Source of the DNA: Streptococcus cristatus ATCC 51100
GTDB lineage: Bacteria; Bacillota; Bacilli; Lactobacillales; Streptococcaceae
Direction: 5' to 3'
Assembly: GCF_011612585.1 (NCBI RefSeq)
Contig: NZ_CP050133.1
Coordinates: 620,001-684,000, forward strand
DNA: 64,000 nucleotides
A program made the translations under genes and the position numbers. The notes below the pieces were generated by a model. That model was given only the letters and a program-made list of their open reading frames with translations, was not told the DNA's origin and made no database searches. Position 1 is the stretch's first letter, and each line of letters opens with the position of its first letter. Shown in pieces: positions 3,001 through 29,586 of this stretch.

Positions 3001-6000
3001 AGCAACCAAGTGAAACGACTTATGTTGACACAGCAAACAAGGTAACTTGGACATTTGCAGGATACGATAAAGAAAAAATTGTTGTAGCAAAAGGCAGACA
3101 GACTTTCCTTGGAAGCTGGGTGCCTACTCCAAATCCAGAATATGTATTCAAATCTTCTGACGCGCGTGTTCCATTGCCACAAAGTATTTTGGGAATGCTG
3201 CCAAGTGATGAGGCTTCTTATAAGGTTGGAGACACCATTGTAGCCAAACAGCCTGCTAAAGAATCAGTAGTTGAAGAAGAAAAAGACTATGTCTGGACCT
3301 TCAAAGGTTACGATCAGAAGAATGCGGCCTATAATGGCAAGCGCGTGACATTTACAGGTATCTGGGAAGCAACGCCTAGACCGCATCATGTAAGCTATAC
3401 TTTTGAAAGCGAAACGGCTGGTGTTGATTTGCCTGAATTTATCCAGAAGAAAGCACCAAAAGACAGCTCAAGCTATTACAACACGCAAAAAGTTGTACCA
3501 GAAGAGCCGACAACAAAGACTTACAAAGATGATGTGAATGATGGTACCTGGACTTTCGCTGGTTATGATGCCAAAAGTAAGATTGTGAAAAAAGCTGATT
3601 TGACTTTCACAGGTAAGTGGGCCTTTGAAGCCAACAAGTATCAAGCTACTTATCGCTTCGAGAGCGCAACAGCAGGTAAGCAACTTCCAGCAGCCATCGC
3701 AGCATTGACTCCAAGCGACAGTGCAACTTATGTGAATGGTGCCTCTGTTTCCGCTCAGCAACCAGCGCAAGCGACCTACACAGACACAGTGAACGATGGC
3801 ACATGGACCTTCAAGGGCTATGATGCAGCTAGCGCCGTTGTTAACAAGGCTGATGTAGAGTTTGTAGGGAAATGGGCCTTTGAAGCCAACAAGTATCAAG
3901 CTACTTATCGCTTCGAGAGCGCAACAGCAGGTAAGCAACTTCCAGCAGCGATCGCAGCATTGACTCCAAGCGACAGTGCAACATATGTGAATGGTGCCTC
4001 TGTTTCCGCTCAACAACCATCTCAAACTACATACACAGATACAGTGAATGATGGCACATGGACCTTCAAGGGCTATGACGCAGCTAGCGCCGTTGTTAAT
4101 AAGGCCGATGTAGAGTTTGTAGGAAAATGGACCTTCGAAGCCAAGAAGTACCAAGCTACTTATCGCTTCGAGAGTGAGACAGCAGGTAAGGCTCTTCCAG
4201 CAGCCATCACATCATTGACCCCAAGCGACAGTGCAACTTATGAGAATGGTGCCTCTGTTTCCGCTCAACAACCATCACAAACCACTTACACAGATAGTGT
4301 GAATGACGGCACATGGACCTTCAAGGGCTATGATGCAGCTAGCGCCGTTGTCAACAAGGATAATGTAGAGTTTATAGGTAAGTGGGCCTTTGAAGCCAAC
4401 AAGTACCAGGCTACTTACAGCTTTGCAAGCGCAACAGCAGGTAAGCAACTTCCAGCAGGTATCGCAACGTTGCTTCCAAGCGACAGTGCAAGTTATGAAA
4501 ATGGCAATACTGTTTCCGCTCAACAACCATCTCAAACCACCTACACAGACCCAGTGAATGATGGCACATGGACCTTCAAGGGCTATGACGCATCTAGCGC
4601 CGTTGTCAACAAGTCCGATGTTGAGTTTGTAGGGAAATGGGCCTTTGAAGCTAATAAGTACCAAGCAAGTTACCGCTTCGAGAGTGAGACGGCAGGTAAG
4701 CAACTTCCAGCAGGTATCGCAACGTTGCTTCCAAGCGACAGTGCAAGTTATGAAAATGGCAATACTGTTTCCGCTCAACAACCATCTCAAACCACCTACA
4801 CAGACCCAGTGAATGATGGCACATGGACCTTCAAGGGCTATGACGCATCTAGCGCCGTTGTCAACAAGTCCGATGTTGAGTTTGTAGGGAAATGGGCCTT
4901 TGAAGCTAATAAGTACCAAGCAAGTTACCGCTTCGAGAGTGAGACGGCAGGTCAAGCACTTCCAGCAGCGATCGCAGCATTGACTCCAAGCGACAGTGCA
5001 ACTTATGTGAATGGTGCCTCTGTTTCCGCTCAACAACCATCACAAACCACTTACACAGATACTGTGAATGATGGCACCTGGACCTTCAAGGGCTATGACG
5101 CATCTAGCACCGTTGTCAACAAGGCTAATATAGAGTTTGTAGGAAAATGGGCCTTTGAAGCCAACAAGTACCAAGTTACTTACAGCTTCGAGAGCACAAC
5201 AGCAGGTAAGCAACTTCCAGCAGCCATCGCAGCATTGACTCCAAGCGACAGTGCAACTTATGTGAATGGTGCCTCTGTTTCCGCTCAACAACCATCACAA
5301 ACCACTTACACAGATACTGTGAATGATGGCACCTGGACCTTCAAGGGCTATGACGCATCTAGCACCGTTGTCAACAAGGCTAATATAGAGTTTGTAGGAA
5401 AATGGGCCTTTGAAGCCAACAAGTACCAAGTTACTTACAGCTTCGAGAGCACAACAGCAGGTAAGCAACTTCCAGCAGCCATCGCAGCATTGACTCCAAG
5501 CGACAGTGCAACTTATGTGAATGGTGCCTCTGTTTCCGCTCAACAACCATCACAAACCACTTACACAGATACTGTGAATGATGGCACCTGGACCTTCAAG
5601 GGCTATGACGCATCTAGCACCGTTGTCAACAAGGCTAATATAGAGTTTGTAGGAAAATGGGCCTTTGAAGCCAACAAGTACCAAGCTACTTACAGCTTCG
5701 AGAGCACAACAGCAGGTAAGCAACTTCCAGCAGCCATCGCAGCATTGACTCCAAGCGACAGTGCAACTTATGTGAATGGTGCCTCTGTTTCCGCTCAGCA
5801 ACCAGCGCAAGCGACCTACACAGACACAGTGAACGATGGCACATGGACCTTCAAGGGCTATGATGCAGCTAGCGCCGTTGTTAACAAGGCTGATGTAGAG
5901 TTTGTAGGGAAATGGGCCTTTGAAGCCAACAAGTATCAAGCTACTTATCGCTTCGAGAGCGCAACAGCAGGTAAGCAACTTCCAGCAGCCATCGCAGCAT

Positions 6001-7850
6001 TGACTCCAAGCGACAGTGCAACTTATGTGAATGGTGCCTCTGTTTCCGCTCAGCAACCAGCGCAAGCGACCTACACAGACACAGTGAACGATGGCACATG
6101 GACCTTCAAGGGCTATGATGCAGCTAGCGCCGTTGTTAACAAGGCTGATGTAGAGTTTGTAGGGAAATGGGCCTTTGAAGCCAACAAGTATCAAGCTACT
6201 TATCGCTTCGAGAGCGCAACAGCAGGTAAGCAACTTCCAGCAGCCATCGCAGCATTGACTCCAAGCGACAGTGCGACTTATGTGAATGGTGCCTCTGTTT
6301 CCGCTCAGCAACCAGTGCAAGCGACCTACACAGACACAGTGAACGACGGCACATGGACCTTCAAGGGCTATGACGCAGCTAGCGCCGTTGTCAACAAGGC
6401 TAATGTAGAATTTGTAGGTAAATGGACCTTTGAAGCCAACAAGTACCAAGCTACTTACCGCTTCGAGAGCGCAACGGCAGGTAAAGCTCTTCCAGCGGCT
6501 ATCACATCCTTGACTCCAAGCGACAGTGCAACATATGTGAATGGTGCCTCTGTTTCCGCTCAACAACCATCCCAAACCACATACACAGATACTGTGAACG
6601 ACGGCACATGGACCTTCAAGGGCTACGACGCAGCTAGTGCAGTTGTCAACAAGGCAAATGTTGAGTTTGTAGGAAAATGGGTCTTTGAAGCTAAGAAGTA
6701 CCAAGCTACTTATCGCTTCGAGAGCGAAACAGCAGGTCAAGCTCTTCCAGCAGCCATCGCCGCATTGACCCCAAGCGACAGTGCAACATATGTGAATGGT
6801 GCCTCTGTTTCGGCTCAACAACCATCCCAAACCACATACACAGATACTGTGAACGACGGCACATGGACTTTCAAGGGCTACGACGCAGCTAGTGCAGTCG
6901 TGAACAAGGCAAATGTTGAGTTTGTAGGTAAATGGGAATTCAAAGCAAATCCGAAAAATTCTGAAACTTATACGCCTCAGGTAACGGAAGAAATCATCAA
7001 GATTGGAGACAAACCAAACTTGATCGATAATGTGACGAACTTGCCAAGCCTTCCAGCTGGGACTAAGGTAGTCGATATCACGCCTGCGGGTCAAATAGAT
7101 ACTACAAAACCAGGTACTTATAGCGGTACAGTCCGTGTTGACTATCCAGATGGTTCTTCTACTGAAGTTTCTGTACCAGTTAATGTTTTGCCTGCACCGG
7201 TAACTGAAACCTATAAAGTGACTTACCGCTTCGAAAGTGCTACGGCAGACAATAACTTGCCAACAGAAGTATTGAGCTTACTTCCACAAAGTGGAACATA
7301 TACTACAAGTTCTTCTGCAGCGATTGCTTTTGTTCCAGAAGCACCGATGCCTGTAGAAGTGGCTGCTGCAAATGGTACTTGGAAATTCCTGGGCTATGAA
7401 AAAGTGGAAGAGGAGACAAGTTTGACCTTCGTAGGTAAGTGGGCCTTTGAAGCGAAGCAAGTTCCTAGTCCTCAACCACGACCGGAACCAGCACCGCAGC
7501 CGAAACCAGAACCTCAACCAGAACCAGCGCCACAACCGCAACCGGTTCCGAAACCAGAACCTCAGCCAAGTCCAGTTCCACCAGTGACTCCAGAAGTGAA
7601 GCCAACTCAAGAGACTGATTCAGAAGCTAAAGTTCAAACGGATCAGTTGGCGAAGAAGCCTGAAAGCAAACCTGTTCCAAATGCTAAGCCAGCTGTTCCA
7701 ACTCCTGCAGGAGATAAGACTAAACAAGCGACCTTACCAAATACAGGTAGCACTGCTCCAGTTTCAATCGCGGGAGCGACGACAAGTGCTCTTCTTGCGG
7801 GTCTAGGATTCATGATTCTTGGTCACAAGCGCAAAGATGATGAGGCTTAA
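1..7850 (+). CDS. Giant SHIRT-repeat LPxTG surface protein (5' end outside window)
   Basis: The reading frame is open to the window edge, so the signal peptide and true start are missing; about 2615 residues are visible. A Ser/Thr/Pro/Ala-rich N-terminal stretch leads into about 11 divergent SHIRT-type modules (roughly 570-3640). Each has a Y-x-F-x-S start, a GTWTFxGYD core and a final FxGKW. Then come about 13 almost identical 85-residue modules (255 bp each, about 3640-6950). A Rib-like domain (about 6960-7200), one more SHIRT module, a Pro/Glu/Gln-rich wall-spanning segment, LPNTG (7735-7749), a hydrophobic helix and a KRKDDEA tail follow. SHIRT arrays form rigid rods that hold an adhesive tip away from the cell wall (family knowledge). 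This is therefore a sortase-anchored stalk whose tip lies upstream. Ligand unknown. Confidence 0.93.
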   Translation, partial: DELVATAQVENKSENQVSVGTSEPAKTETQETVSVTPSAPVQVESKEAITTTVPAPAQTETQGDNQASLKSATPAETEASQATDSTIFKNAQPATGTSQPAAATAQPASANASLNKSALENYLKNLRSKDFSSKTDDSLEILNGVMTAADGVLQTATKQEEIDKVYRNLVNFVNSGLRDKNPKFIPDQDKTPRSALYEFESATPGKTTPLALNYLKPEDTKIYKKGDKVKAIQPTETTYVEYDGSGRWTFKGYDHDSQVIDKDDVFFTGKWEFTPTPYKATYRAVNGSPGKTPPSYVANWSPEDRRRFAEGEVVKAKEFHYVFYTSEEFPNRKGYWALTGFDAPSKVANNGDVEFVGTWKYFEDVTVSYKPMNQHDFENFYHLPSSPKTSRDEYKLPLPKEIKDLESRLYDYKLSLNQFDERHEYLPKDILDTVAALLRYDEAQNLYKPFYDAENEGNWTFEEDVVDLTFSRELERAATYGEIPKVTIPLEFVFKGVPRKPTYEFISDSSDKPLPAEINNLKPTNMPEWEYAKRKQYPKGEMVQSVRPIQESYYDKTNKGTWTFKGYDFKEKPVSEWDHKGWNLKFTGTWTFVADKYSENYEFISKDPSLSLPEEVKALTPSNTNTYNDGDTVNAVAPLKTTYMDFANKGTWKFEGYDADSKVVNKDKVLFTGTWSFTPHRDKVVSFNFVSDTPGKTIPDDLKAQIPAPITTSPDEYSDNVKNVLRDFYTYTDEENDGTWVSKQPEEVEKPTDDEDSTYTLHWTFEPTKRSVYYDFYTDSKDDSGQTIYPPSTLYNLITYEREFVKGEKARVKMPSKTRFEDPDGRGTWVFDDYYEDDNTTISPRVKTVEAGDVIFRGKWILVPTNQSDTIYRVEYKFTNSTPAYPLPNKIRDMLPAGTDFVGRADDYKDASKLDTSTVTVPTGTWTFHGFDTAKYGKAIAGTKVKTITGTWSFEPNGVDYQFQSTNPDFVLPDHITKLTPKNPIDYKMGGLFLTEVDAEQPSETTYVDTANKVTWTFAGYDKEKIVVAKGRQTFLGSWVPTPNPEYVFKSSDARVPLPQSILGMLPSDEASYKVGDTIVAKQPAKESVVEEEKDYVWTFKGYDQKNAAYNGKRVTFTGIWEATPRPHHVSYTFESETAGVDLPEFIQKKAPKDSSSYYNTQKVVPEEPTTKTYKDDVNDGTWTFAGYDAKSKIVKKADLTFTGKWAFEANKYQATYRFESATAGKQLPAAIAALTPSDSATYVNGASVSAQQPAQATYTDTVNDGTWTFKGYDAASAVVNKADVEFVGKWAFEANKYQATYRFESATAGKQLPAAIAALTPSDSATYVNGASVSAQQPSQTTYTDTVNDGTWTFKGYDAASAVVNKADVEFVGKWTFEAKKYQATYRFESETAGKALPAAITSLTPSDSATYENGASVSAQQPSQTTYTDSVNDGTWTFKGYDAASAVVNKDNVEFIGKWAFEANKYQATYSFASATAGKQLPAGIATLLPSDSASYENGNTVSAQQPSQTTYTDPVNDGTWTFKGYDASSAVVNKSDVEFVGKWAFEANKYQASYRFESETAGKQLPAGIATLLPSDSASYENGNTVSAQQPSQTTYTDPVNDGTWTFKGYDASSAVVNKSDVEFVGKWAFEANKYQASYRFESETAGQALPAAIAALTPSDSATYVNGASVSAQQPSQTTYTDTVNDGTWTFKGYDASSTVVNKANIEFVGKWAFEANKYQVTYSFESTTAGKQLPAAIAALTPSDSATYVNGASVSAQQPSQTTYTDTVNDGTWTFKGYDASSTVVNKANIEFVGKWAFEANKYQVTYSFESTTAGKQLPAAIAALTPSDSATYVNGASVSAQQPSQTTYTDTVNDGTWTFKGYDASSTVVNKANIEFVGKWAFEANKYQATYSFESTTAGKQLPAAIAALTPSDSATYVNGASVSAQQPAQATYTDTVNDGTWTFKGYDAASAVVNKADVEFVGKWAFEANKYQATYRFESATAGKQLPAAIAALTPSDSATYVNGASVSAQQPAQATYTDTVNDGTWTFKGYDAASAVVNKADVEFVGKWAFEANKYQATYRFESATAGKQLPAAIAALTPSDSATYVNGASVSAQQPVQATYTDTVNDGTWTFKGYDAASAVVNKANVEFVGKWTFEANKYQATYRFESATAGKALPAAITSLTPSDSATYVNGASVSAQQPSQTTYTDTVNDGTWTFKGYDAASAVVNKANVEFVGKWVFEAKKYQATYRFESETAGQALPAAIAALTPSDSATYVNGASVSAQQPSQTTYTDTVNDGTWTFKGYDAASAVVNKANVEFVGKWEFKANPKNSETYTPQVTEEIIKIGDKPNLIDNVTNLPSLPAGTKVVDITPAGQIDTTKPGTYSGTVRVDYPDGSSTEVSVPVNVLPAPVTETYKVTYRFESATADNNLPTEVLSLLPQSGTYTTSSSAAIAFVPEAPMPVEVAAANGTWKFLGYEKVEEETSLTFVGKWAFEAKQVPSPQPRPEPAPQPKPEPQPEPAPQPQPVPKPEPQPSPVPPVTPEVKPTQETDSEAKVQTDQLAKKPESKPVPNAKPAVPTPAGDKTKQATLPNTGSTAPVSIAGATTSALLAGLGFMILGHKRKDDEA
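570..3640 (+). repeat. Divergent SHIRT modules
   Basis: About 11 degenerate copies of the same 80-110 residue module, recognisable by the conserved GTWTF/GxWxF strand and the closing F-x-G-x-W. One copy near 1100-1500 is expanded and strongly diverged. They sit before the near-identical block and look like an older generation of the array. Confidence 0.75.
3640..6950 (+). repeat. Tandem array of about 13 near-identical 255-bp SHIRT units
   Basis: The unit start recurs every 255 bp (for example 3661, 3916, 4171). Subsets are identical at DNA level: the TYSFESTTAG type with ANIEF occurs three times in a row at about 5170-5930, and the PAQATYTDTV type with ADVEF recurs. Such identity indicates recent unit duplication or homogenisation, so copy number is likely to vary between strains. 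Confidence 0.92.
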
Positions 7851-13754: not shown

Positions 13755-14447
13755 ATGGTAAAATTGGTTTTTGCTCGCCATGGTGAGTCTGAATGGAACA
13801 AAGCTAACCTTTTCACTGGTTGGGCTGATGTAGATCTTTCTGAAAAAGGGACACAACAAGCAATCGACGCTGGTAAATTGATCAAAGAAGCAGGTATCGA
13901 ATTTGACCAAGCTTACACTTCAGTTTTGAAACGTGCGATCAAAACAACAAACTTGGCGCTTGAAGCAGCTGACCAACTTTGGGTTCCAGTTGAAAAATCA
14001 TGGCGCTTGAACGAACGTCACTACGGTGGTTTGACTGGTAAAAACAAGGCTGAAGCTGCTGAACAATTTGGTGATGAGCAAGTTCACATCTGGCGTCGTT
14101 CATACGATGTATTGCCTCCAAACATGGACCGTGATGATGAGCACTCAGCTCACACTGACCGTCGTTACGCTTCACTTGACGATTCAGTTATTCCAGATGC
14201 TGAAAACTTGAAAGTAACTTTGGAACGTGCCCTTCCATTCTGGGAAGATAAAATCGCTCCAGCACTTAAAGATGGTAAAAATGTATTCGTAGGAGCTCAC
14301 GGTAACTCAATCCGTGCCCTTGTAAAACACATCAAACGCTTGTCAGACGACGAAATCATGGACGTGGAAATCCCTAACTTCCCACCATTGGTATTCGAAT
14401 TCGACGAAAAATTGAACGTAGTTGCTGAATACTACCTTGGAAAATAA
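13755..14447 (+). CDS. gpmA: 2,3-bisphosphoglycerate-dependent phosphoglycerate mutase
   Basis: 230 residues, full length. The catalytic motif [20 protein letters not shown] carries the phosphohistidine (RHGE), and the second catalytic histidine is in [14 protein letters not shown]. It interconverts 3- and 2-phosphoglycerate in glycolysis. Optimal codon use and an AAAGGAGA ribosome site fit high expression. The gene ends at a terminator that also marks the left border of the accessory island. Confidence 0.97.
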
Positions 14448-14456
14448 TTGATGATA

Positions 14457-14480
14457 GAGCTCTGCCTAGCAGGGCTTTTT
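14457..14480 (+). terminator. gpmA terminator
   Basis: AGCTCTGC-CTA-GCAGGGCT hairpin (one G-T pair) followed by TTTTT. Confidence 0.8.
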
Positions 14481-14501
14481 CTCATTATTGGAGAAAAATT
14501 C
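14477..14501. repeat. 25-bp direct repeat, left border of island
   Basis: Identical to 29475-29499, just upstream of pbp2b. It contains its own hairpin, TTTTCTC / GAGAAAA, separated by 7 bases. The first IS110 fragment starts directly after it. Confidence 0.9.
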
Positions 14502-15239
14502 GGCTCTTTTCTACCATTTGTCAAGTCTATCAAGGCTTTAAGTAAAAAAAGAGATAAGACAGTAGCTATTCTGAGGTTACTGTCTTATTTTTAACACTTT
14601 TTGATCCATAAAAGGGCATGCTAAAAAACACCTTATCTGGTATTTTTGAAACAAGGTGTTACCATAATACGGCATAGACAGCCTTATCGATTTTGGGTCA
14701 AAGAATAATCGTAAAGTTTGTTATGCGTAATGAGGTAATACATTGTTCGAATGAGACGATGTATAGAGGCAATCGTAAGTGGCTTAGTTGAAGCTATTGT
14801 CGATTGTCTTTTTCGTTTCTCATAAAAGTCAGCGATATGGCAGGGATTGGTATGACTAGCTGAAGCGATGTTGTGAATGCACTTGAACAAGATTTTTCTG
14901 GCATAGGGATTACCTCGTTTAGTGATGTGTTCCTTAGCGAGAAAGTTCCTAGATTCATAGTGTCTCAGGTCAATGCCAATAAAAGCATTGAATTGATTGG
15001 TAGACTGAAAGCGATGAATATCTCCCAATTCGCCAATGATAGATGTCGCTGTGGTTTCTGCGATGCTAGGAATTGACCGTAAGATGTCATACTCTGGTAA
15101 AGGCTGAGCTAGAGCTACCATGTCGTTTAAGACAACTTGTCTGCGTTCAGAAAGACGAAGCAATTCTTGAGCATAGTAGCGAACCTCTTCAAGCATTGGA
15201 GAGGTTTTCTTGACCGCACAAAAAGATTGTTTAGCGAGT
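14502..15239 (-). mobile_element. Truncated IS110-family element (copy 1)
   Basis: This segment matches 27651-28388 over about 738 bp with only two differences noticed (15075 and 15123 areas). It begins with GGCTCT, the same terminal bases as copy 2, and keeps the 3' noncoding end and the C-terminal half of the transposase. It breaks off inside the transposase gene at about 15239, where a different reading frame begins. Confidence 0.92.
14684..15239 (-). pseudogene. IS110 transposase C-terminal fragment
   Basis: The frame keeps the Transposase_20-type C-terminal domain (IPSIAETTATSIIGELGDIH and TKRGNPYARKILF). It lacks the whole N-terminal DEDD catalytic domain. Codons continue in frame to the break at about 15239 with no start in register, so it cannot make an active enzyme. 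Confidence 0.92.
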
Positions 15240-15317
15240 GAGATAGCTGAGCCTTACCTTGATGAGCATATTGCCCAGCGCTGGTCTGATCTGGTTCGAT
15301 CGGCTCAGACCAACTAA
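15240..15317 (+). pseudogene. 3' remnant of an upstream gene, probably gtfA of the accessory Sec locus
   Basis: From the IS break an open frame reads EIAEPYLDEHIAQRWSDLV and six more residues, to a stop at 15315-15317, 30 bp before gtfB. In accessory Sec loci gtfA lies directly upstream of gtfB in the same direction, so this 25-residue tail is most simply the gtfA C-terminus. That identification is by position; 25 residues are too few for me to recognise the family by sequence. Confidence 0.55.
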
Positions 15318-15347
15318 GTAGGATTCAGAAAGAAAGGCATAACCACT

Positions 15348-16676
15348 ATGATTTGTTTGTTTGACCGCTATGATCAAGCAAGTTTTGATTTGTTACGTTC
15401 ATTAAAAGCAACAGGACTTGATTGTCCTGTTGTTGTTGTACAAGACGATGGCTATCTTTCACCAGATGTCGAGTCTCCTTACAGTTATTTTACAGGAGAT
15501 TTGGACACACCAGAGGGCCGTCCAATTTATTTTAATCTTGTCCCCAAACCGCATCTATGGGAGATTCGCTCTAGCAATGTAAATGGCGAAATCTTGGATA
15601 TGGGCAAGAAGCGTGCGAATATTTTCTATCGCCAACCGACACATGAAAGACGTGTGCGGGCTGTCGAATGGTTGGATACAGAGGGGCAAGTCCGAGCGGC
15701 AGATATCTACAATCGCAAAGGACGGCTTTTTGCACAAATAACCTACGACCAGACACAACGTCCGACCCATACTCGTTATTTTGACCAGAGCAATGTCGTG
15801 GTCATTATGGAAAATCATCTGACTGGTGATATCATCTTGACACTTGAAGGAAAGCGTCATATTTTTAAATCTAAACAAGAATTTGTCGTCTTTTATCTGC
15901 AATATCGTGGATATGATACAGATCGTATTATTTATAATTCTCTAGCAACCCCCTTCTTGGTGGCCTACGCTCTTCGTCCTAAAAATGGTCGTGCAGAAGA
16001 TGTTCTTTTCTGGCAGGAGCCTATCGGAGAAGCCTTACCTGGAAATATGAAAGTAGCTATGAAAATGCCTCATCGCAATATCCGCATCGCTGTTCAGGAC
16101 AGGCAGGTATATGAGAAAATTCAAAGCTTGGCAACACCGGAAGAAAAAGTCTATTTCCACAATATTGGTTATATTTATGATTACCAACGTCTTAATAATA
16201 TGAATCCAGAAGCCTTGATTTTGACCAATAGTGATCAGCTTGAGCAAATAGAGCAGCTCTTGACTCAGCTGCCAAATGTACATTTCCATATTGGAGCCAT
16301 CACAGAAATGTCTGGCCATTTGATGGGGCTCAATCGTTATCCGAATGTTTCGCTTTATCCAAATATTCGTCCGGCAAAGGTTGCAGAGCTTTTTGAGAGA
16401 TGTGACTTGTATCTAGATATCAATATCAGCGATGAAATTCTTAATGCTTGTCGCACAGCTTTTGAGAACAACATGTTGATTCTCAGTTTCACAAATACTT
16501 GTCATAGCCGTCGATTTATTGCGGATGATCACATTTACGCACCAGAAAATGTCTCAGGCATGGTGGATAAGATTCAAAGTGCCCTTGCCCATTCATCAGA
16601 GATGGAAGCAGCACTTACTAGACAGAAACAGGCTGCTAATCAAGCTAGTTTGGAGCAATATAAGGCCATTATTTAA
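15348..16676 (+). CDS. gtfB: Accessory Sec glycosylation protein GtfB
   Basis: 442 residues, close to the usual GtfB length. The N-terminus MICLFDRYDQ, the mid-region ENHLTGDIILTLEGK with IFKSKQEFV, FWQEPIGEALPGNM and the C-terminal YLDINISDEILNACRTAFENN match streptococcal GtfB. GtfB is the substrate-binding partner of GtfA; together they add the first GlcNAc to Ser/Thr of serine-rich-repeat adhesins in the cytosol before export (established knowledge). GAAAGG precedes the ATG. Its obligate partner gtfA is reduced to a short tail just upstream, so function depends on a GtfA made elsewhere. Confidence 0.9.
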   Translation: MICLFDRYDQASFDLLRSLKATGLDCPVVVVQDDGYLSPDVESPYSYFTGDLDTPEGRPIYFNLVPKPHLWEIRSSNVNGEILDMGKKRANIFYRQPTHERRVRAVEWLDTEGQVRAADIYNRKGRLFAQITYDQTQRPTHTRYFDQSNVVVIMENHLTGDIILTLEGKRHIFKSKQEFVVFYLQYRGYDTDRIIYNSLATPFLVAYALRPKNGRAEDVLFWQEPIGEALPGNMKVAMKMPHRNIRIAVQDRQVYEKIQSLATPEEKVYFHNIGYIYDYQRLNNMNPEALILTNSDQLEQIEQLLTQLPNVHFHIGAITEMSGHLMGLNRYPNVSLYPNIRPAKVAELFERCDLYLDINISDEILNACRTAFENNMLILSFTNTCHSRRFIADDHIYAPENVSGMVDKIQSALAHSSEMEAALTRQKQAANQASLEQYKAII

Positions 16677-16688
16677 CCAGATACATGA

Positions 16689-16715
16689 GAACTTGCTTTC
16701 GATGAGGGCAAGTTC
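16689..16715 (+). other. Intercistronic hairpin gtfB / asp4
   Basis: GAACTTGC / GCAAGTTC inverted repeat with an 11-base loop and only a short T-run. It may be a weak terminator or mRNA-processing hairpin between gtfB and the small membrane protein gene. Confidence 0.5.
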
Positions 16716-16746
16716 CTTTATGCAGATTTAGTAAGGGAGGACAATC

Positions 16747-16923
16747 ATGCCAGAGAAGCAAAAGGGAATTCTGCAGGAACATATCAACGAGCAACTAGAT
16801 AATCGTAGGAGACCGTTGAAAAGAGAGAAGCAAGAGTTTAGTATGATTGCAGTGTTAGGTGGCATTCTCTTTCTTATCACCCTCTTGGTCACAATCATCA
16901 TGCAGTTGGGACACTTTTTCTAG
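16747..16923 (+). CDS. asp4: Small membrane protein, Asp4-like (SecE-like accessory Sec subunit)
   Basis: 58 residues, ATG after GGGAGG. A charged cytoplasmic N-terminus of about 33 residues (MPEKQKGILQEHINEQLDNR) is followed by one hydrophobic helix of about 21 residues and a short end. In streptococcal accessory Sec loci, asp4 encodes a single-span SecE-like protein of about 60 residues directly after gtfB; size, topology and position all fit. No neighbouring SecG-like asp5 is seen. The assignment rests mainly on context. Confidence 0.72.
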   Translation: MPEKQKGILQEHINEQLDNRRRPLKREKQEFSMIAVLGGILFLITLLVTIIMQLGHFF

Positions 16924-17131: not shown

Positions 17132-17160
17132 TTGAAAAAGGGAATCCGTTTTGGTAAAAT
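17132..17160 (+). promoter_or_regulatory. Promoter of the serine-rich-repeat adhesin gene
   Basis: TTGAAA (17132-17137), 17-base spacer, TAAAAT (17155-17160) with an upstream TGG. It predicts a leader of about 190 nt before the chosen start codon. Confidence 0.75.
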
Positions 17161-17354: not shown

Positions 17355-20300
17355 ATGTTTCGAAGTAAAAAATTTAACAAAGATTTCGAGATCGTAGATG
17401 AGAAAAAGCGTTATAAGCTTTACAAGTCGGGTAAAAACTGGGTAAAAGCCTCGAATTCTCAATTGGATCTCTTCCGTATCGGTGGGATGGGCGAAGTTGT
17501 CTCTAGTACCCTGTCAGACACTGAAGAACTTGATCACGCATACCTTAGTTTTAACACGCTAGCGGGTATAGGGGGAATCCTGGCCGCGGGGGCTGCAGGA
17601 TTTGTGATGACTCAAGAGCAAACTGTTTATGCGGATGAAACATCTGAGTATACAGAAAAGGATAAAACAGTCATCGCAGCTGAACCGAAAGCGGCTGAAA
17701 CAAGTGCCAACTCAATCATCGCTCAAGCGCAAGCAGAAGTAAAGAAAGCTCAAGCAGAACAAGCATCTGCAACAGCTTCTGTATCAGTCAGTCAATCTGT
17801 TGAGGATCAAGCGAGTGCGAGTCAGTCAGTTTCAGTCAGTCAATCTGCCTCAGCAAGTCAGTCAGCTTCAGTCAGTCAATCTGCCTCAGCAAGTCAATCA
17901 GCATCAGCTCCTACATCAGTCTCAGCAAGTGCAAAAGCATCTGCATCAGTAAGCTCTACACCATCAGAATCAGCAAGCGCTCAAGCACCTGCCTCTGTAG
18001 TTGAGAGTGCATCAGTTGTTAGCGAACCATCAGCTCAGGCTTCTGTGTCTACCTCAGCTTCTGCATCGCTCAACCTTAAGGTCAACCCTGAGGTAAGTCT
18101 TGTATCAGGTAGTGCTAACCAAAGTTTGGCAAGTGCAGCTCTTAGCACAAGCCAAGCAGCAACGACAAGCAACAATATCGCAGCTGGTGTGATAGCGGAT
18201 AAGAACCAAGCCCAAGGCAAGGATACAACCAAGCAAGCTGAGAAAAACCAAAAGGTAGACAATACTGTAGCGACTGCACCAAAGACAGGGTATTCTGGAT
18301 TTAGAGCAAATCCGATCGATACTGGATCAAAAGAACCTTTCTTTCTAAATACCGATCCATATAGCATCAACTCTCCAGAAACAAGTGGTCGTTTAAATAG
18401 ACAACGGGTCTTTCTGGGACGAGCAGGTGTTCCTTTCTCGGTAACATATTACATGCATAAGTCTCAATTTGATGCGGACGAATATCCTTACGGTTCATAT
18501 AAGGATAGTGAGTTTGCAGGACTTTCTGCAAGAACAACTCTAGAGACTCGAAACTGGCAAGAAGCACAAGAGAAATATAATATTACCTCGGAAACAGGTC
18601 GTGTGGAAGTGGCTCCTGGACGTTATATTCCATATGTAACTTTCAAGAGTGATAATCCAAAAGCATTTAATAGTAGTGTCAATCTGGATGTGACCTTTGA
18701 TGGACGTAGCTTTCCTCAAACCAGCATATTCATGAACCTTACTACTACTCAGTTTAAGGGACCTGCTGTAACGTATGATGCTGAAGGGAAACAAGAAGCA
18801 CTGGCTCCTCTTGCAAAATATAAAGTAGGCGATAGAGTTAATGAAACTTTATATTTCCATAATGATAAACAGTATAGATATGAGCAAGATGCTAAAAATT
18901 CTATGCTTTTGTACACTGGTAATGGTGGTACAACCAAATATAGTGGCTTGAGGTATGTTACAGGGGTGGAAAGGCGTGCTGATTTCACCTATGTTCCAAA
19001 ACTCACTATTACAGGGACGGTTTTAACTGAAAATCCTAATGTACTCGTCAGACAGACTAATGGATCGGGAGGTAAGGATGCTGACTTCTTTACCTATCTA
19101 GGCCGTCCAGAAGAAGTTGTAACTGAGGCTGCGCAGGAGTCAATTATCAACAAGAGCAAAGACTCACTAATTCCTTCCCCTGAACCACTAGTTCCTGAGC
19201 TTGAAGTCGGTAAACGAGTTAATGAAACTTTATATGTTCATGATGGTAATAACAAAGGAGATAAGTCTGTTGGCTCTTGGCAAAGTTCTTACCTTGCAGA
19301 TCAAGCGGTTGAACTGATTCATGGTAAGAAAGAACTAGAAGCTCTTGGATTAACAGTTACTACTAAAAGCAATGAACCAGGGGCTGGTAAAACTGGCTAT
19401 ATCCCATCTATCCAAATTTCTGGAACGCCTACTGGAACAGGAACTGTAACACTCAAATATAAGATCACTGACGAAGCGGGACAGCTTAACTTTAAGGACA
19501 TTCAAGTAAATGTTAAAGAAAGCGGATCCCTTAGCCAATCAGTTTCAGCTTCTGTATCTGCAAGTCAAAGTGCTTCAGCATCTATCTCAGCAAGCATCAG
19601 TGCGAGCCACTCAGCATCAAGCTCAGTAAATGCTAGCCAAAGTGCATCAGCAAGCCAATCAGCCAGCGCATCCGTATCAGCTAGTCAAAGTGCTTCAACC
19701 TCAGTAAGCGCGAGCCACTCTGCGTCAATTAGTTCGAGCCAAAGCGCTTCAGCATCTATCTCAGTAAGCATCAGTGCTAGCCACTCAGCATCTGTATCAG
19801 CTAGCCAAAGCACTTCAGCATCAGTAAGCTCAAGTCAATCAGCTTCAGCTTCTGTAAGTGCAAGTCAATCAGCTAGCGCATCAGTATCTGTAAGTCAATC
19901 AGCTTCAGCTTCTGTAAGTGCAAGTCAATCAGCTAGCGCATCAGTATCTGTAAGTCAATCAGCTTCAGCATCTGTATCAGCTAGCCAAAGCACTTCAGCG
20001 TCAGTATCTGCAAGTCAATCAGCTTCAGCATCTGTATCAGCTAGCCAAAGCGCGTCAGCATCAGTAAGCTCAAGTCACTCAGCTAGCGCATCAGTATCTG
20101 TAAGTCAATCAGCTTCAGCATCAGTAAGTGCTAGTCACTCAGCATCTGTATCAGCTAGCCAAAGCGCATCAGTTTCTGTATCTGCAAGCCAAAGTGCTTC
20201 AACCTCAGTAAGCGCGAGCCACTCTGAGTCAATTAGTGCGAGCCAAAGTGCTTCAGCCTCTATCTCAGCAAGCATCAGTGCTAGCCAATCAGCCTCTGTA

Positions 20301-23300
20301 TCAGCTAGTCAATCAGCTTCAGCGTCTGTATCTGCAAGTCAAAGTACTTCAGCATCAGTAAGCGCAAGCCAAAGTGCCTCAGCTTCAGCATCTAACAACC
20401 AGAACTCAGCGTCTATCTCAGTAAGCGCGAGCCACTCTGCGTCAATTAGTGCGAGCCAAAGTGCTTCAGCCTCTATCTCAGCAAGCATCAGTGCTAGCCA
20501 ATCAGCTTCAGCGTCTGTATCTGCAAGTCAAAGTACTTCAGCATCAGTAAGCGCAAGCCAAAGTGCCTCAGCTTCAGCATCTAACAACCAGAACTCAGCG
20601 TCTATCTCAGTAAGCGCGAGCCAGTCTGCGTCAATTAGTGCGAGCCAAAGTGCTTCAGCATCTATCTCAGCAAGCATCAGTGCTAGCCAATCAGCCTCTG
20701 TATCAGCTAGTCAATCAGCTTCAGCGTCAGTATCTGCAAGTCAAAGTACTTCAGCATCAGTAAGCGCAAGCCAAAGTGCCTCAGCTTCAGCATCTAACAA
20801 CCAGAACTCAGCGTCTATCTCAGTAAGCGCGAGCCAGTCTGCGTCAATTAGTGCGAGCCAAAGCACTTCAGCATCAGTAAGTGCTAGTCAATCAGCTTCA
20901 GTATCAGCTAGCCAATCAGCCTCTGTATCAGCTAGTCAATCAGCTTCAGCGTCTGTATCTGCAAGTCAAAGTACTTCAGCATCAGTAAGCGCAAGCCAAA
21001 GTGCTTCAGCTTCAGCATCTAACAACCAGAACTCAGCGTCTATCTCAGTAAGCGCGAGCCAGTCTGCGTCAATTAGTGCGAGCCAAAGTGCTTCAGCATC
21101 TATCTCAGCAAGCATCAGTGCTAGCCAATCAGCCTCTGTATCAGCTAGTCAATCAGCTTCAGCGTCAGTATCTGCAAGTCAAAGTACTTCAGCATCAGTA
21201 AGCGCAAGCCAAAGTGCCTCAGCTTCAGCATCTAACAACCAGAACTCAGCGTCTATCTCAGTAAGCGCGAGCCAGTCTGCGTCAATTAGTGCGAGCCAAA
21301 GCACTTCAGCATCAGTAAGTGCTAGTCAATCAGCTTCAGTATCAGCTAGCCAATCAGCCTCTGTATCAGCTAGTCAATCAGCTTCAGCGTCTGTATCTGC
21401 AAGTCAAAGTACTTCAGCATCAGTAAGCGCAAGCCAAAGTGCTTCAGCTTCAGCATCTAACAACCAGAACTCAGCGTCTATCTCAGTAAGCGCGAGCCAC
21501 TCTGCGTCAATTAGTGCGAGCCAAAGCACTTCAGCATCTATCTCAGCAAGCATCAGTGCTAGCCAATCAGCCTCTGTATCAGCTAGTCAATCAGCTTCAG
21601 CTTCTGTATCTGCAAGTCAAAGTACTTCAGCATCAGTAAGCGCAAGCCAAAGTGTCTCAGCTTCAGCATCTAACAACCAGAACTCAGCGTCTATCTCAGT
21701 AAGCGCGAGCCACTCTGCGTCAATTAGTGCGAGCCAAAGCACTTCAGCATCTATCTCAGCAAGCATCAGTGCTAGCCAATCAGCCTCTGTATCAGCTAGT
21801 CAATCAGCTTCAGCATCTGTATCTGCAAGTCAAAGTACTTCAGCATCAGTAAGCGCAAGCCAAAGTGCCTCAGCTTCAGCATCTAACAACCAGAACTCAG
21901 CGTCTATCTCAGCAAGCATCAGTGCTAGCCAATCAGCCTCTGTATCAGCTAGTCAATCAGCTTCAGCTTCTGTATCTGCAAGTCAAAGTACTTCAGCATC
22001 AGTAAGCGCAAGCCAAAGTGTCTCAGCTTCAGCATCTAACAACCAGAACTCAGCGTCTATCTCAGTAAGCGCGAGCCACTCTGCGTCAATTAGTGCGAGC
22101 CAAAGCACTTCAGCATCTATCTCAGCAAGCATCAGTGCTAGCCAATCAGCCTCTGTATCAGCTAGTCAATCAGCTTCAGCATCTGTATCTGCAAGTCAAA
22201 GTACTTCAGCATCAGTAAGCGCAAGCCAAAGTGCCTCAGCTTCAGCATCTAACAACCAGAACTCAGCGTCTATCTCAGTAAGCGCGAGCCAGTCTGCGTC
22301 AATTAGTGCGAGCCAAAGTGCTTCAGCCTCTATCTCAGCAAGCATCAGTGCTAGCCAATCAGCCTCTGTATCAGCTAGTCAATCAGCTTCAGCGTCTGTA
22401 TCTGCAAGTCAAAGTACTTCAGCATCAGTAAGCGCAAGCCAAAGTGCCTCAGCTTCAGCATCTAACAACCAGAACTCAGCGTCTATCTCAGTAAGCGCGA
22501 GCCACTCTGCGTCAATTAGTGCGAGCCAAAGTGCTTCAGCCTCTATCTCAGCAAGCATCAGTGCTAGCCAATCAGCCTCTGTATCAGCTAGTCAATCAGC
22601 TTCAGCGTCTGTATCTGCAAGTCAAAGTACTTCAGCATCAGTAAGCGCAAGCCAAAGTGCCTCAGCTTCAGCATCTAACAACCAGAACTCAGCGTCTATC
22701 TCAGTAAGCGCGAGCCAATCTGCGTCAATTAGTGCGAGCCAAAGTGCTTCAGCCTCTATCTCAGCAAGCATCAGTGCTAGCCAATCAGCCTCTGTATCAG
22801 CTAGTCAATCAGCTTCAGCGTCAGTATCTGCAAGTCAAAGTACTTCAGCATCAGTAAGCGCAAGCCAAAGTGCCTCAGCTTCAGCATCTAACAACCAGAA
22901 CTCAGCGTCTATCTCAGTAAGCGCGAGCCAGTCTGCGTCAATTAGTGCGAGCCAAAGCACTTCAGCATCAGTAAGTGCTAGTCAATCAGCTTCAGTATCA
23001 GCTAGCCAATCAGCCTCTGTATCAGCTAGTCAATCAGCTTCAGCGTCTGTATCTGCAAGTCAAAGTACTTCAGCATCAGTAAGCGCAAGCCAAAGTGCTT
23101 CAGCTTCAGCATCTAACAACCAGAACTCAGCGTCTATCTCAGTAAGCGCGAGCCACTCTGCGTCAATTAGTGCGAGCCAAAGCACTTCAGCATCTATCTC
23201 AGCAAGCATCAGTGCTAGCCAATCAGCCTCTGTATCAGCTAGTCAATCAGCTTCAGCTTCTGTATCTGCAAGTCAAAGTACTTCAGCATCAGTAAGCGCA

Positions 23301-26300
23301 AGCCAAAGTGTCTCAGCTTCAGCATCTAACAACCAGAACTCAGCGTCTATCTCAGTAAGCGCGAGCCACTCTGCGTCAATTAGTGCGAGCCAAAGCACTT
23401 CAGCATCTATCTCAGCAAGCATCAGTGCTAGCCAATCAGCCTCTGTATCAGCTAGTCAATCAGCTTCAGCATCTGTATCTGCAAGTCAAAGTACTTCAGC
23501 ATCAGTAAGCGCAAGCCAAAGTGCCTCAGCTTCAGCATCTAACAACCAGAACTCAGCGTCTATCTCAGCAAGCATCAGTGCTAGCCAATCAGCCTCTGTA
23601 TCAGCTAGTCAATCAGCTTCAGCTTCTGTATCTGCAAGTCAAAGTACTTCAGCATCAGTAAGCGCAAGCCAAAGTGTCTCAGCTTCAGCATCTAACAACC
23701 AGAACTCAGCGTCTATCTCAGTAAGCGCGAGCCACTCTGCGTCAATTAGTGCGAGCCAAAGCACTTCAGCATCTATCTCAGCAAGCATCAGTGCTAGCCA
23801 ATCAGCCTCTGTATCAGCTAGTCAATCAGCTTCAGCATCTGTATCTGCAAGTCAAAGTACTTCAGCATCAGTAAGCGCAAGCCAAAGTGCCTCAGCTTCA
23901 GCATCTAACAACCAGAACTCAGCGTCTATCTCAGTAAGCGCGAGCCAGTCTGCGTCAATTAGTGCGAGCCAAAGTGCTTCAGCCTCTATCTCAGCAAGCA
24001 TCAGTGCTAGCCAATCAGCCTCTGTATCAGCTAGTCAATCAGCTTCAGCGTCTGTATCTGCAAGTCAAAGTACTTCAGCATCAGTAAGCGCAAGCCAAAG
24101 TGCCTCAGCTTCAGCATCTAACAACCAGAACTCAGCGTCTATCTCAGTAAGCGCGAGCCACTCTGCGTCAATTAGTGCGAGCCAAAGTGCTTCAGCCTCT
24201 ATCTCAGCAAGCATCAGTGCTAGCCAATCAGCCTCTGTATCAGCTAGTCAATCAGCTTCAGCGTCTGTATCTGCAAGTCAAAGTACTTCAGCATCAGTAA
24301 GCGCAAGCCAAAGTGCCTCAGCTTCAGCATCTAACAACCAGAACTCAGCGTCTATCTCAGTAAGCGCGAGCCAATCTGCGTCAATTAGTGCGAGCCAAAG
24401 TGCTTCAGCCTCTATCTCAGCAAGCATCAGTGCTAGCCAATCAGCCTCTGTATCAGCTAGTCAATCAGCTTCAGCGTCAGTATCTGCAAGTCAAAGTACT
24501 TCAGCATCAGTAAGCGCAAGCCAAAGTGCCTCAGCTTCAGCATCTAACAACCAGAACTCAGCGTCTATCTCAGTAAGCGCGAGCCAGTCTGCGTCAATTA
24601 GTGCGAGCCAAAGTGCTTCAGCATCTATCTCAGCAAGCATCAGTGCTAGCCAATCAGCCTCTGTATCAGCTAGTCAATCAGCTTCAGCGTCTGTATCTGC
24701 AAGTCAAAGTACTTCAGCATCAGTAAGCGCAAGCCAAAGTGCCTCAGCTTCAGCATCTAACAACCAGAACTCAGCGTCTATCTCAGTAAGCGCGAGCCAG
24801 TCTGCGTCAATTAGTGCGAGCCAAAGTGCTTCAGCATCTATCTCAGCAAGCATCAGTGCTAGCCAATCAGCCTCTGTATCAGCTAGTCAATCAGCTTCAG
24901 CGTCAGTATCTGCAAGTCAAAGTACTTCAGCATCTGAATCAGCAAGCACAAGCATGAGCAACAGCGTGTCCGCCTCAATCAGTGCATCTGAATCAGTAAG
25001 CACAAGCATGAGCAACAGCGTGTCTGCTTCAATCAGTGCTTCAGTATCAGCAAGCACAAGCATGAGCAACAGCGTGTCTGCCTCAATCAGTGCAAGCCAA
25101 TCAGCAAGCACAAGCATGAGCAACAGCGTGTCTGCCTCAATCAGTGCTTCAGTATCAGCAAGCACAAGCATGAGCAACAGCGTGTCTGCTTCAATCAGTG
25201 CTTCAGTATCAGCAAGCACAAGCATGAGCAACAGCGTGTCTGCTTCAATCAGTGCTTCAGTATCAGCAAGCACAAGCATGAGCAACAGCGTGTCTGCTTC
25301 AATCAGTGCTTCAGTATCAGCAAGCACAAGCATGAGTAACAGCGTGTCTGCCTCAATCAGTGCATCTGAATCAGCAAGCACAAGCATGAGCAACAGCGTG
25401 TCTGCTTCAATCAGTGCTTCAGTATCAGCAAGCACAAGCATGAGCAACAGCGTGTCTGCTTCAATCAGTGCTTCAGTATCAGCAAGCACAAGCATGAGCA
25501 ACAGCGTGTCTGCTTCAATTAGTGCATCTGAATCAGCAAGCACAAGCATGAGCAACAGCGTGTCTGCTTCAATCAGTGCTTCAGTATCAGCAAGCACAAG
25601 CATGAGTAACAGCGTGTCTGCCTCAATCAGTGCATCTGAATCAGCAAGCACAAGCATGAGCAACAGCGTGTCTGCTTCAATTAGTGCATCTGAATCGGCA
25701 AGCACAAGCATGAGTAACAGCGTGTCTGCCTCAATCAGTGCAAGCCAATCAGCAAGCGCGTCAGTATCTGCAAGTCAAAGTACTTCAGCATCTGAATCAG
25801 CAAGCACAAGCATGAGCAACAGCGTGTCAGCGTCAATCAGTGCTAGCCAATCAGTAAGCACAAGCATGAGCAACAGCGTATCAGCGTCAATCAGTGCCTC
25901 AGTATCAGCAAGCACAAGCATGAGCAACAGCGTGTCTGCTTCAATCAGTGCTTCAGCATCAGCAAGCACAAGCTTGAGTAACAGCGTATCAGCGTCAATC
26001 AGTGCTTCAGCATCAGCAAGCACAAGCATGAGTAACAGCGTGTCAGCATCAATCAGTGCATCTGAATCAGCAAGCACAAGCTTGAGCAACAGCGTGTCTG
26101 CCTCAATCAGTGCAAGCCAATCAGCAAGCGCGTCAGTATCTGCAAGTCAAAGTACTTCAGCATCTGTATCAGCTAGCCAATCAGCAAGCACAAGCATGAG
26201 CAACAGCGTGTCTGCCTCAATCAGTGCAAGCCAATCAGCAAGCACAAGCATGAGCAACAGCGTGTCTGCCTCAATCAGTGCTTCAGTATCAGCAAGCACA

Positions 26301-27557
26301 AGCATGAGCAACAGCGTGTCTGCTTCAATCAGTGCTTCAGTATCAGCAAGCACAAGCATGAGCAACAGCGTGTCTGCTTCAATCAGTGCTTCAGTATCAG
26401 CAAGCACAAGCATGAGCAACAGCGTGTCTGCTTCAATCAGTGCTTCAGTATCAGCAAGCACAAGCATGAGTAACAGCGTGTCTGCCTCAATCAGTGCATC
26501 TGAATCAGCAAGCACAAGCATGAGCAACAGCGTGTCTGCTTCAATCAGTGCTTCAGTATCAGCAAGCACAAGCATGAGCAACAGCGTGTCTGCTTCAATC
26601 AGTGCTTCAGTATCAGCAAGCACAAGCATGAGCAACAGCGTGTCTGCTTCAATTAGTGCATCTGAATCAGCAAGCACAAGCATGAGCAACAGCGTGTCTG
26701 CTTCAATCAGTGCTTCAGTATCAGCAAGCACAAGCATGAGCAATAGCGTGTCTGCTTCAATTAGTGCATCTGAATCAGTAAGCACAAGCATGAGCAACAG
26801 CGTGTCTGCTTCAATCAGTGCTTCAGTATCAGCAAGCACAAGCATGAGTAACAGCGTGTCAGCCTCAATCAGTGCATCTATCTCAGCAAGCACAAGCATG
26901 AGCAATAGCGTGTCAGCCTCAATCAGTGCTTCAGTATCAGCAAGCACAAGCATGAGCAACAGCGTGTCTACTTCAATCAGTGCATCTGAATCAGCAAGCA
27001 CAAGCATGAGCAACAGCGTGTCTGCTTCAATCAGTGCATCTGAATCAGTAAGCAACAACTCAAGTAGTACTTCAGTTTCAACAAGTACTTCAGTAAGCTT
27101 GAGTAACAGCGTAAGTACATCTACATCACTTAGCAATAGCGTTTCAAACAGTTTGAGTACAAGTGCGTTACAACAATCTAACTCATTCAGCTATAGTAAG
27201 GGTGAGCCAACAAGCGAATCTAAGCCAGAGTTTAACCTTCCTAGCTACCTTGAATCTGTAAGTGCAAGTGAGTCAGTCTCAACAAGCACAAGCATGAGTG
27301 ACAGCGCAAGTACCTCAGCTAGCTTGTCCGACAGTGCTTCAATCTCAAGTGCTACAAATCACTCTCAAGCACCTAAGCCACAGCCTGCACAACCAGGACA
27401 AGTCAAAGTTACTCCAAACGCTAAGGCTTTACCAAATACAGGAACTGCAAGTAACCAATTTGCTGGTCTTGGATTAGGAGTAGCTGCCTTGGTAACTGCC
27501 TCTCTTCTTGGTAAGAAGAAGAGATCAGCAGCTTCTGAAATGGATTTAGAAGACTAA
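17355..27557 (+). CDS. Serine-rich-repeat glycoprotein adhesin (GspB/Hsa/SrpA class), LPNTG-anchored
   Basis: 3400 residues. The ATG at 17355 follows AAAGAAAGGA; an in-frame TTG at 17274 has no support. An accessory-Sec signal peptide carries the KxYKxGKxW motif (K21-W29), then an [15 protein letters not shown] hydrophobic core ending near residue 95. A short serine-rich region (about 139-240) precedes a non-repetitive ligand-binding region (about 306-722) containing two VGxRVNETLY modules. A huge second serine-rich region (about 722-3300) follows, then LPNTG (3359-3363), a hydrophobic helix and a KKKR tail. Such proteins are O-glycosylated in the cytosol, exported by SecA2/SecY2 and bind host or bacterial ligands. 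I cannot see a clear Siglec-type motif, so the ligand is unknown. Confidence 0.95.
19520..24940 (+). repeat. Serine-rich repeat block A (SASxSxSASxS with NNQN punctuation)
   Basis: Degenerate [13 protein letters not shown] units. From about 20390 they are organised into a higher-order 71-residue (213-bp) unit, each beginning with NNQNSASIS; for example the ctaacaacc motif recurs at 20581 and 20794. Variants swap Q for H and A for T or V at fixed positions. Confidence 0.92.
21104..24620 (+). repeat. 1656-bp higher-order tandem duplication inside the adhesin gene
   Basis: Diagnostic variants recur at a constant offset of 1656 bp: the GTCTGC at 21275 and 22931, the AGTGTCTCAG variant at 21651 and 23307, GCGCGAGCCACTCTG at 22495 and 24151, and CCAATCTGCG at 22715 and 24371. 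1656 bp is 552 codons, so the frame is kept. I found no mismatch at the sites checked; I did not compare every base. Confidence 0.85.
24940..27050 (+). repeat. Serine-rich repeat block B (18-residue [14 protein letters not shown] units)
   Basis: About 39 copies of a 54-bp unit, [16 protein letters not shown] followed by a variable V, E, Q or A. Two short islands of block-A type sequence interrupt it (about 25740-25800 and 26110-26170). Codons are nearly fixed, pointing to recent expansion. Confidence 0.92.
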
Positions 27558-27615
27558 GTTCCAAAAATCGGCTACAATGAAATTTTGTTGATATCATTTT
27601 AGCGATGAAAATAAG

Positions 27616-27648
27616 AACCCCGGATGGCTCAAGGCTATCTGGGGTTTT
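27616..27648 (+). terminator. Adhesin gene terminator
   Basis: AACCCCGGATGG / CTATCTGGGGTT hairpin with loop CTCAAGG, then TTTTT. IS110 copy 2 begins directly after it. Confidence 0.88.
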
Positions 27649-27650
27649 TC

Positions 27651-27832
27651 GGCTCTTTTCTACCATTTGTCAAGTCTATCAAGGCTTTAAGTAAAAAAAG
27701 AGATAAGACAGTAGCTATTCTGAGGTTACTGTCTTATTTTTAACACTTTTTGATCCATAAAAGGGCATGCTAAAAAACACCTTATCTGGTATTTTTGAAA
27801 CAAGGTGTTACCATAATACGGCATAGACAGCC
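27651..27832 (-). ncRNA. Candidate IS110/IS1111 guide RNA (bridge RNA / seekRNA) region
   Basis: The 182-bp noncoding end downstream of the transposase stop holds two hairpins: GATAAGACAGTA / TACTGTCTTATT (27702-27738) and AACACCTT / AAGGTGTT (27776-27809). IS1111-group elements encode their target-choosing RNA in this 3' noncoding end. The segment is conserved in copy 1 (14502-14683). The first hairpin could also simply be a transposase terminator. Confidence 0.45.
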
Positions 27833-29111: not shown

Positions 29112-29164
29112 CTAAAACAAGGTGTCTTGCCAATTTGTCAAGCGACGTCTAGCGCCATAGAGCC

Positions 29165-29260
29165 CTACGACTTTACAAGACACCACTACTTTAACATAAA
29201 GAAAAAGTAGTGAGTACTCTCTTCCGTCGGAGATTTCTTCACTACTAATCTTAGTATGTT
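29165..29260. other. Short hairpin-rich spacer between IS110 copy 2 and ISL3 remnant
   Basis: Two overlapping inverted repeats share the CACTACTTT/AAAGTAGTG arm (about 29190-29215) and GTAGTGA / TTCACTAC (about 29208-29247). No gene. It could be the edge of another decayed mobile element. Confidence 0.45.
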
Positions 29261-29261
29261 T

Positions 29262-29473
29262 GTCAACTGTAGTGGGTTGTTGAAAAGTTACAACCTGGAG
29301 AGGACCAAATTTGTTCTCTCCTTTTTGATATTCAAAGCGACGAGAATTCTAGTTTTAAAGTTGTCAAAGTTCCGAAAGCTAAAAGCGTTGCGTTTGAGTA
29401 GGTAAGATCTAAGGCGTTTATAATTTTAGATCCATAATTCCTACAGTGGTTTTACCCACTACAGAAATTATAG
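29262..29473 (-). mobile_element. ISL3-family insertion sequence remnant
   Basis: Starts with TTTGTCAACTGTAGTGGGTT, which resembles an ISL3/IS1167-type end. It contains only the last 43 codons of a transposase on the minus strand (29416-29288), with FRNFDNFKTRILVALNIKKE and a stop after LVLSRL. The right edge is an inverted repeat around 29434-29471 that again contains the complement of CTGTAGTGGGT. The interior of the element is deleted. Confidence 0.78.
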
Positions 29474-29474
29474 A

Positions 29475-29499
29475 TTTTCTCATTATTGGAGAAAAATTC
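29475..29499. repeat. 25-bp direct repeat, right border of island
   Basis: Identical to 14477-14501. Downstream of it the sequence runs straight into the pbp2b promoter region. Confidence 0.9.
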
Positions 29500-29553: not shown

Positions 29554-29586
29554 AAAAGATAGATTTTTACGAGAATGAGAGAAGAA

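Follow-up and report, generated by a model that had tools for sequence, protein, structure and literature searches.

Background

The serine-rich repeat proteins (SRRPs) of streptococci are usually encoded together with the accessory Sec genes, according to extracts of two reviews (PMC7661464, PMC6973325). The same extracts mention that gtfAB is encoded elsewhere in Streptococcus salivarius (PMC7661464) and that in some strains the cluster is incomplete or is accompanied by a second one (PMC6973325). In Streptococcus cristatus, tufts of fibrils enable adhesion to Corynebacterium matruchotii, as stated in an extract of one paper (PMC9446765). The arrangement reported here is not described in the titles and abstract openings among the matches listed for S. 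cristatus SRRPs, secA2, SrpA and fibrils, nor in those listed for translocatable units and IS110, nor in those listed for accessory Sec or SRRP genes with insertion sequences, direct repeats or gene transfer.

Another class of relevant elements is the IS26-style translocatable unit, or pseudo-compound transposon, of which Tn7086 is reportedly an example. A passenger together with part of an IS enters beside a resident IS, and direct repeats are left. For the adhesin itself, the nearest named protein is SrpA, which is said in the title of a 2005 report by Handley et al. to be a serine-rich fibril-associated protein of S. cristatus. The adhesin described here, SRRP1, is likewise a serine-rich protein of that species, and SrpA may be either SRRP1 or the second SRRP at 1.653 Mb.

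The window analysed is a stretch of 64,000 bp, positions 620001–684000 of the single contig of 2,031,205 bp that forms the genome of S. cristatus ATCC 51100. It resembles the streptococcal SRRP glycosylation island in that an SRRP with KxYKxGKxW and LPXTG motifs is present and that secA2, secY2, asp1-3, gtfA and gtfB are in the genome. Unlike that island, the adhesin is some 784 kb from the operon, and therefore not linked to it, and has a second gtfB and an asp4-like gene of its own. The likeness to an IS26-style unit lies in a passenger beside part of an IS, in entry alongside a resident IS copy and in the direct repeats. It differs from such a unit in that its IS110 lies within an ISL3-type element, the repeat is longer than the IS110, and the transposase is broken in two carriers. 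The cassette fits two unlike sites because its second homology arm is the end of the accessory Sec operon.

Results and discussion

The insert between gpmA and pbp2b

Coordinates are those of the window unless a genome position is given. The left neighbour of the insert is gpmA, encoding phosphoglycerate mutase (13755–14447, plus strand; NCBIfam PRK14117, 522 bits, cut-off 421), which adjoins the insertion site in all eight genomes compared, and the right neighbour is pbp2b, encoding PBP2B (29575–31632, plus strand; NCBIfam strep_PBP2B, 1135 bits, cut-off 975). The whole insert is bracketed by two identical 25-bp direct repeats at 14477–14501 and 29475–29499 (plus strand). Each of the four strains whose site is uninterrupted has this 25-bp sequence once, and strain DD08 has it twice, where it brackets the nest of IS elements in the absence of the cassette. 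ISL3 elements are not known to make target duplications as long as these repeats.

The insert opens with the left end of an ISL3-type element (14499–14647), the first three bases of which are common to the 25-bp repeat. This is followed by an IS110 fragment (14648–15239, minus strand) that retains 592 of 1456 bp and encodes the C-terminal part of the transposase, by a gtfA tail of 25 codons and a stop (15240–15317, plus strand), and by a second gtfB (15348–16676, plus strand) that is open over 442 aa and scores 539.2 bits with TIGR02919 (cut-off 338.3). The next gene, of 58 aa (16747–16923, plus strand), is asp4-like by position and size, and has no match in NCBIfam or Pfam. Upstream of the adhesin there is a promoter-like site, TTGAAA-17-TAAAAT with an extended -10 (17132–17160, plus strand), which is a weak candidate because nine such sites were found against a mean of 8.1 in shuffled sequences, no real excess.

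SRRP1 itself (17355–27557, plus strand) is 3400 aa long from the ATG at 17355, with the listed open frame beginning further upstream at TTG 17274. It has the features of an SRRP adhesin: a KxYKxGKxW signal (TIGR03715 / PF19258), an LPXTG anchor (PF00746) and serine-rich repeats. Its 3' flank (27562–27647, plus strand) contains a terminator-like hairpin, recognized by eye, and abuts the IS end in both arrangements described below. The sequence then continues, as judged by sequence comparison, with a right-hand copy of the ISL3-type left end (27648–27796), a full-length IS110 (27797–29252, minus strand) and the ISL3-type right end (29253–29474). The IS110 transposase is split into two frames of 314 and 118 aa, as it is in strain BCC41, and is intact at 432 aa in DD08. 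The left and right parts of the ISL3-type element are contiguous, with no IS110 between them, in another genome (G285:C13:470-762), and a full relative in the ATCC 51100 genome encodes an ISL3 transposase. A further IS110 copy stands at a contig end, beside an ISL3-type right end, in Marseille-P6264 (G241:C2:249041-250236). Elsewhere in the window, positions 3–7850 hold a 2615-aa frame, in which a 255-bp repeat is listed 13 times; this large repeat protein is cut by the window edge.

The junction of IS110 and gtfA

Positions 14499–15239 and 27648–28388 differ by two mismatches in 741 bp, with identity breaking off at 15239; the initial 149 bp or so of this left piece, all of which had been called IS110, is the left end of the ISL3-type element that hosts it. 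The frame that starts at the next base ends 30 bp 5' of the gtfB start, and its 78 bp are 99% identical in nucleotide sequence to the 3'-terminal stretch of the intact gtfA (genome 1419588–1419665). The initial annotation had placed the break at this point from the sequence of the window alone and had taken the frame as probably the C-terminus of GtfA, joined directly to a broken IS110, with gtfB, an Asp4 gene and the adhesin as neighbours. The comparisons bear out each of these readings, with the asp4-like gene identified as above.

GtfA is represented in the window by its last 25 codons only, and the TIGR02918 cut-off of 574.6 bits is passed at one place in the genome, the gtfA at 1.42 Mb (742 bits). 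Searched on its own, the 25-aa tail has no match among solved structures, and its single match by sequence, to a phage at E=10, is meaningless. There is no convincing microhomology at the 15239/15240 joint by eye.

A misassembly across IS110 copies had been named as a finding that would overturn the initial reading. A 32-mer spanning it was found, with two or fewer mismatches, in 6 of 284 Streptococcus genomes, and the same pattern read backwards in none of the 284. Since five further assemblies share the junction, misassembly is ruled out.

The accessory Sec operon at 1.42 Mb is complete

The accessory Sec genes that the initial annotation had taken to be missing, secA2, secY2, asp1-3 and a full gtfA, are all present in a complete operon at about 1.418–1.436 Mb on the minus strand. 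The order is a GT8 glycosyltransferase gene (identified by Pfam), secY2, asp1, asp2, asp3, secA2, a serine-rich frame, a GH1-like gene, a 289-codon frame, gtfA, gtfB and a 58-codon asp4-like gene, followed by holA and sodA. The products of secY2, asp1-3, secA2, gtfA and gtfB all score above the cut-offs of the curated accessory Sec models. Window positions 15240–16923, which comprise the gtfA tail, gtfB and the asp4-like gene, duplicate the 3' end of this operon with 94.8% identity over 1684 bp.

No SRRP with both a KxYKxGKxW signal and an LPXTG motif adjoins the operon in the ATCC 51100 genome. Two loci in the genome pass the signal model: SRRP1 and, at 1.653 Mb, a second SRRP (genome 1653342, minus strand; frame of about 4450 aa). 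This second SRRP is also distant from the operon, and it is found in all eight S. cristatus-group genomes.

The serine-rich frame between secA2 and the GH1-like gene (genome 1423486–1426443, minus strand) is 985 aa long and 35% serine. It has neither a KxYKxGKxW signal nor an LPXTG motif, and no Pfam match at E 0.001. A similar frame is present at the same position in the six further S. cristatus-group genomes in which this region was read (33–35% serine) and in two of three S. oralis genomes (29–32% serine), the third being masked by Ns. A conserved serine-rich protein without a visible export signal inside this operon merits separate study.

Arrangements in eight genomes

The two sites were mapped in S. 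cristatus ATCC 51100, BCC41, BCC51, A52, A53, DD08 and S22 and in Marseille-P6264, which is recorded as Streptococcus sp. Identities of 92.8–96.7% over eight genes suggest that ATCC 51100 belongs with this group. Matches in S. oralis CR140 (gtfB 93% identical), in further S. oralis genomes, in S. vestibularis and in lactobacilli were left uncounted.

In A52, A53 and P6264 the cassette is at the operon, with SRRP1 between asp4 and holA and the gpmA site uninterrupted. One contig of each reads secA2...gtfA-gtfB-asp4-SRRP1, so that the adhesin shares it with secA2, gtfA and gtfB. A second contig has the order SRRP1 3' end, IS piece, gtfA tail, damaged gtfB, asp4, holA. SRRP1 is divided between the two contigs, both of which end in its repeats, and the join at the operon site is accordingly inferred from the flanks. 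A large inversion between the inverted gtfB copies was rejected for these three strains, in which the scar is preceded by the adhesin 3' end and not by gpmA.

The cassette is at gpmA, inside an IS110, in ATCC 51100, BCC51 and BCC41. The operon of ATCC 51100 and BCC51 is closed (asp4-holA) and the cassette follows gpmA. BCC41 has the pieces of the gpmA site, with contig breaks inside both gtfB copies. As both copies are cut by contig ends, an inversion between them may account for that strain, against which stands the adhesin 3' end there, which does continue into a full IS110 and then pbp2b.

The remaining two strains have closed operons. DD08 has the IS110 alone at gpmA, and the site is uninterrupted in S22. 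Overall, the gpmA site is without accessory Sec genes in five of the eight genomes, uninterrupted in four and occupied by the IS only in one. The non-repeat region of SRRP1 is matched with E 0 in the six carriers; the best matches in DD08 (E 2.7e-6) and S22 (E 3.7e-4), for which assembly completeness is not stated, are weak.

In a tree of eight genes BCC41 groups with A52 with support of 1.00 and DD08 with A53 with 0.70, while a deeper node has 0.42; these are recombining bacteria, DD08 is without secA2, and the S. oralis outgroups contribute three of the eight genes. Because BCC41, with the cassette at gpmA, groups with A52, the states of the arrangement are interleaved on the tree.

History of the cassette genes

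Among the asp4-like copies, the end CACTTTTTCTAG is present in five of six copies on the adhesin side and in none of eight on the holA side, and the end CAATTCTT(T/C)TA in seven of eight copies on the holA side and none of six on the adhesin side. The last bases of asp4 thus track the neighbour, adhesin or holA, and not the chromosomal site. The exceptions are the gpmA-site copy of BCC41 and the holA-side copy of P6264. These two, and the gpmA-site copy of BCC51, have S. oralis-like ends.

The gtfB copies do not sort by site when identity along the gene is compared. Of the five other cassettes, four have a damaged second gtfB: A53 and P6264 carry an in-frame deletion, A52 has lost the start and BCC51 has a frameshift. 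In the fifth, BCC41, the gene is broken by contig ends. Such varied damage fits a copy that is dispensable, and is consistent with the second gtfB being hitchhiking homology and not a required gene.

Over 18274–19399, SRRP1 is 94–100% identical to S. oralis BCC10, 86–97% to P6264 and 88–99% to A52. Elsewhere the match to BCC10 is lower, at 75–78% over 17824–18273 and 81–88% in the region upstream; from 18274 on, S. oralis WB01 is 39–50% identical. These uneven identities make SRRP1 a mosaic. The pbp2b stretch is 67–70% identical over the matched parts in the five S. oralis genomes searched. This divergence, the identity to BCC10 and the S. oralis-like asp4 ends together indicate that the adhesin has crossed between species. 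Contigs C3 and C1 of BCC10 both begin with SRRP 3' ends that have the same terminator-like flank and then an ISL3-like end, and at least one of the two is not the SRRP of the operon.

Probable relocation by homologous recombination

The segment in the window is a gain, made up of a duplicated operon end and an adhesin, and not the remnant of a loss. We consider it likely that the adhesin cassette was relocated between the operon and gpmA sites by homologous recombination, probably as a circle. The cassette would consist of the IS110 fragment, gtfA tail, gtfB, asp4-like gene and SRRP1. At one site, recombination across the direct repeats would free it as a circle or amplify it in tandem; the cassette would then enter the other site by means of the second repeat, either within the cell or after DNA uptake. 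Exit would thus be by one pair of repeats (gtfB-asp4) and entry by another (IS110), and homologous recombination would have placed the cassette in the IS110 between gpmA and pbp2b. The circle is proposed from the arrangements, and a tandem array would serve equally well.

Both occupied arrangements have the joints SRRP1-IS, IS/gtfA tail and asp4-SRRP1 in identical cyclic order, and differ in the point at which that order is opened, inside the gtfB-asp4 repeat in one and inside the IS repeat in the other. Such a pattern is the hallmark of a cassette that is excised through one homology and reinserted through a different one. The occupied sites are circular permutations of each other, given the operon-site order inferred above, and the empty sites carry one homology arm. 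Such a process predicts that gpmA-site strains have closed operons and that there are receptive sites without a cassette, and the genomes show both. Each state also complements the other site, in that operon-site strains have an uninterrupted gpmA site and gpmA-site strains have asp4 closed onto holA. Operon-site strains are IS-free at gpmA, which means that they are not derived from gpmA-site strains by a simple move within a single cell. Transfer between strains, or movement in the opposite direction, is therefore needed.

Because two different homology arms are carried, the cassette could re-enter at either site. A reversible shuttle of the adhesin, free of any transposase, with exit from and re-entry at the operon or the IS110 site, is possible, and we put it forward tentatively.

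The strongest alternative, although we think it unlikely, involves no circle: the scar and both arrangements would stem from linear DNA that was taken up and joined by homology at one end and illegitimately at the other, and from later exchange of whole alleles between strains. Streptococci take up DNA, and the greater closeness of SRRP1 to S. oralis BCC10 than to P6264 over 18274–19399 points to exchange between species. We reason, however, that two linear crossovers cannot interconvert the arrangements, because the order is permuted, and that a simple one-ended model would place the illegitimate joint on the opposite side of the homologous anchor.

Movement of the adhesin by transposition of IS110 or a composite IS element, as might be suggested by the IS copies in one orientation that flank it, is improbable. 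The left IS110 copy is without 864 of its 1456 bp and the right copy has a split transposase frame, so this is not a composite transposon. No cassette with clean IS110 ends was seen at further sites in the genomes examined. Nor are the 25-bp repeats a target duplication made by the unit, since they flank the cassette-free IS in DD08. The repeat at gpmA extends beyond the IS110 end into the ISL3 end, and this, with the split transposase in ATCC 51100 and BCC41, favours homologous recombination over transposition.

The deletion proposed in the initial annotation, from inside IS110 to inside gtfA with loss of the Sec core of an operon at gpmA, has a real broken IS110 fused to a gtfA tail in its favour but is refuted for ATCC 51100 by the intact operon at 1.42 Mb and the Sec-free gpmA sites in other strains, and the scar is also at the operon locus of the three strains that keep secA2, gtfA and gtfB in the part of that locus examined.

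Conclusions

Is this locus half of an export system? The question shifts instead to a giant adhesin that moves apart from its exporter. At gpmA, SRRP1 would be glycosylated and exported in trans by the operon at 1.42 Mb, and would be expressed from its own upstream region, which moves along with it. Since the asp4-SRRP1 intergenic region travels with the cassette, the adhesin may keep its own promoter. An adhesin locus without an adjoining secA2 therefore need not be dead. Homologous relocation of the cassette offers a testable route for the exchange of fibril adhesins among oral streptococci. If the reversible shuttle is true, the export machinery would remain in place while S. cristatus populations gained, lost or swapped a fibril adhesin, with S. 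oralis as a further partner in such swaps.
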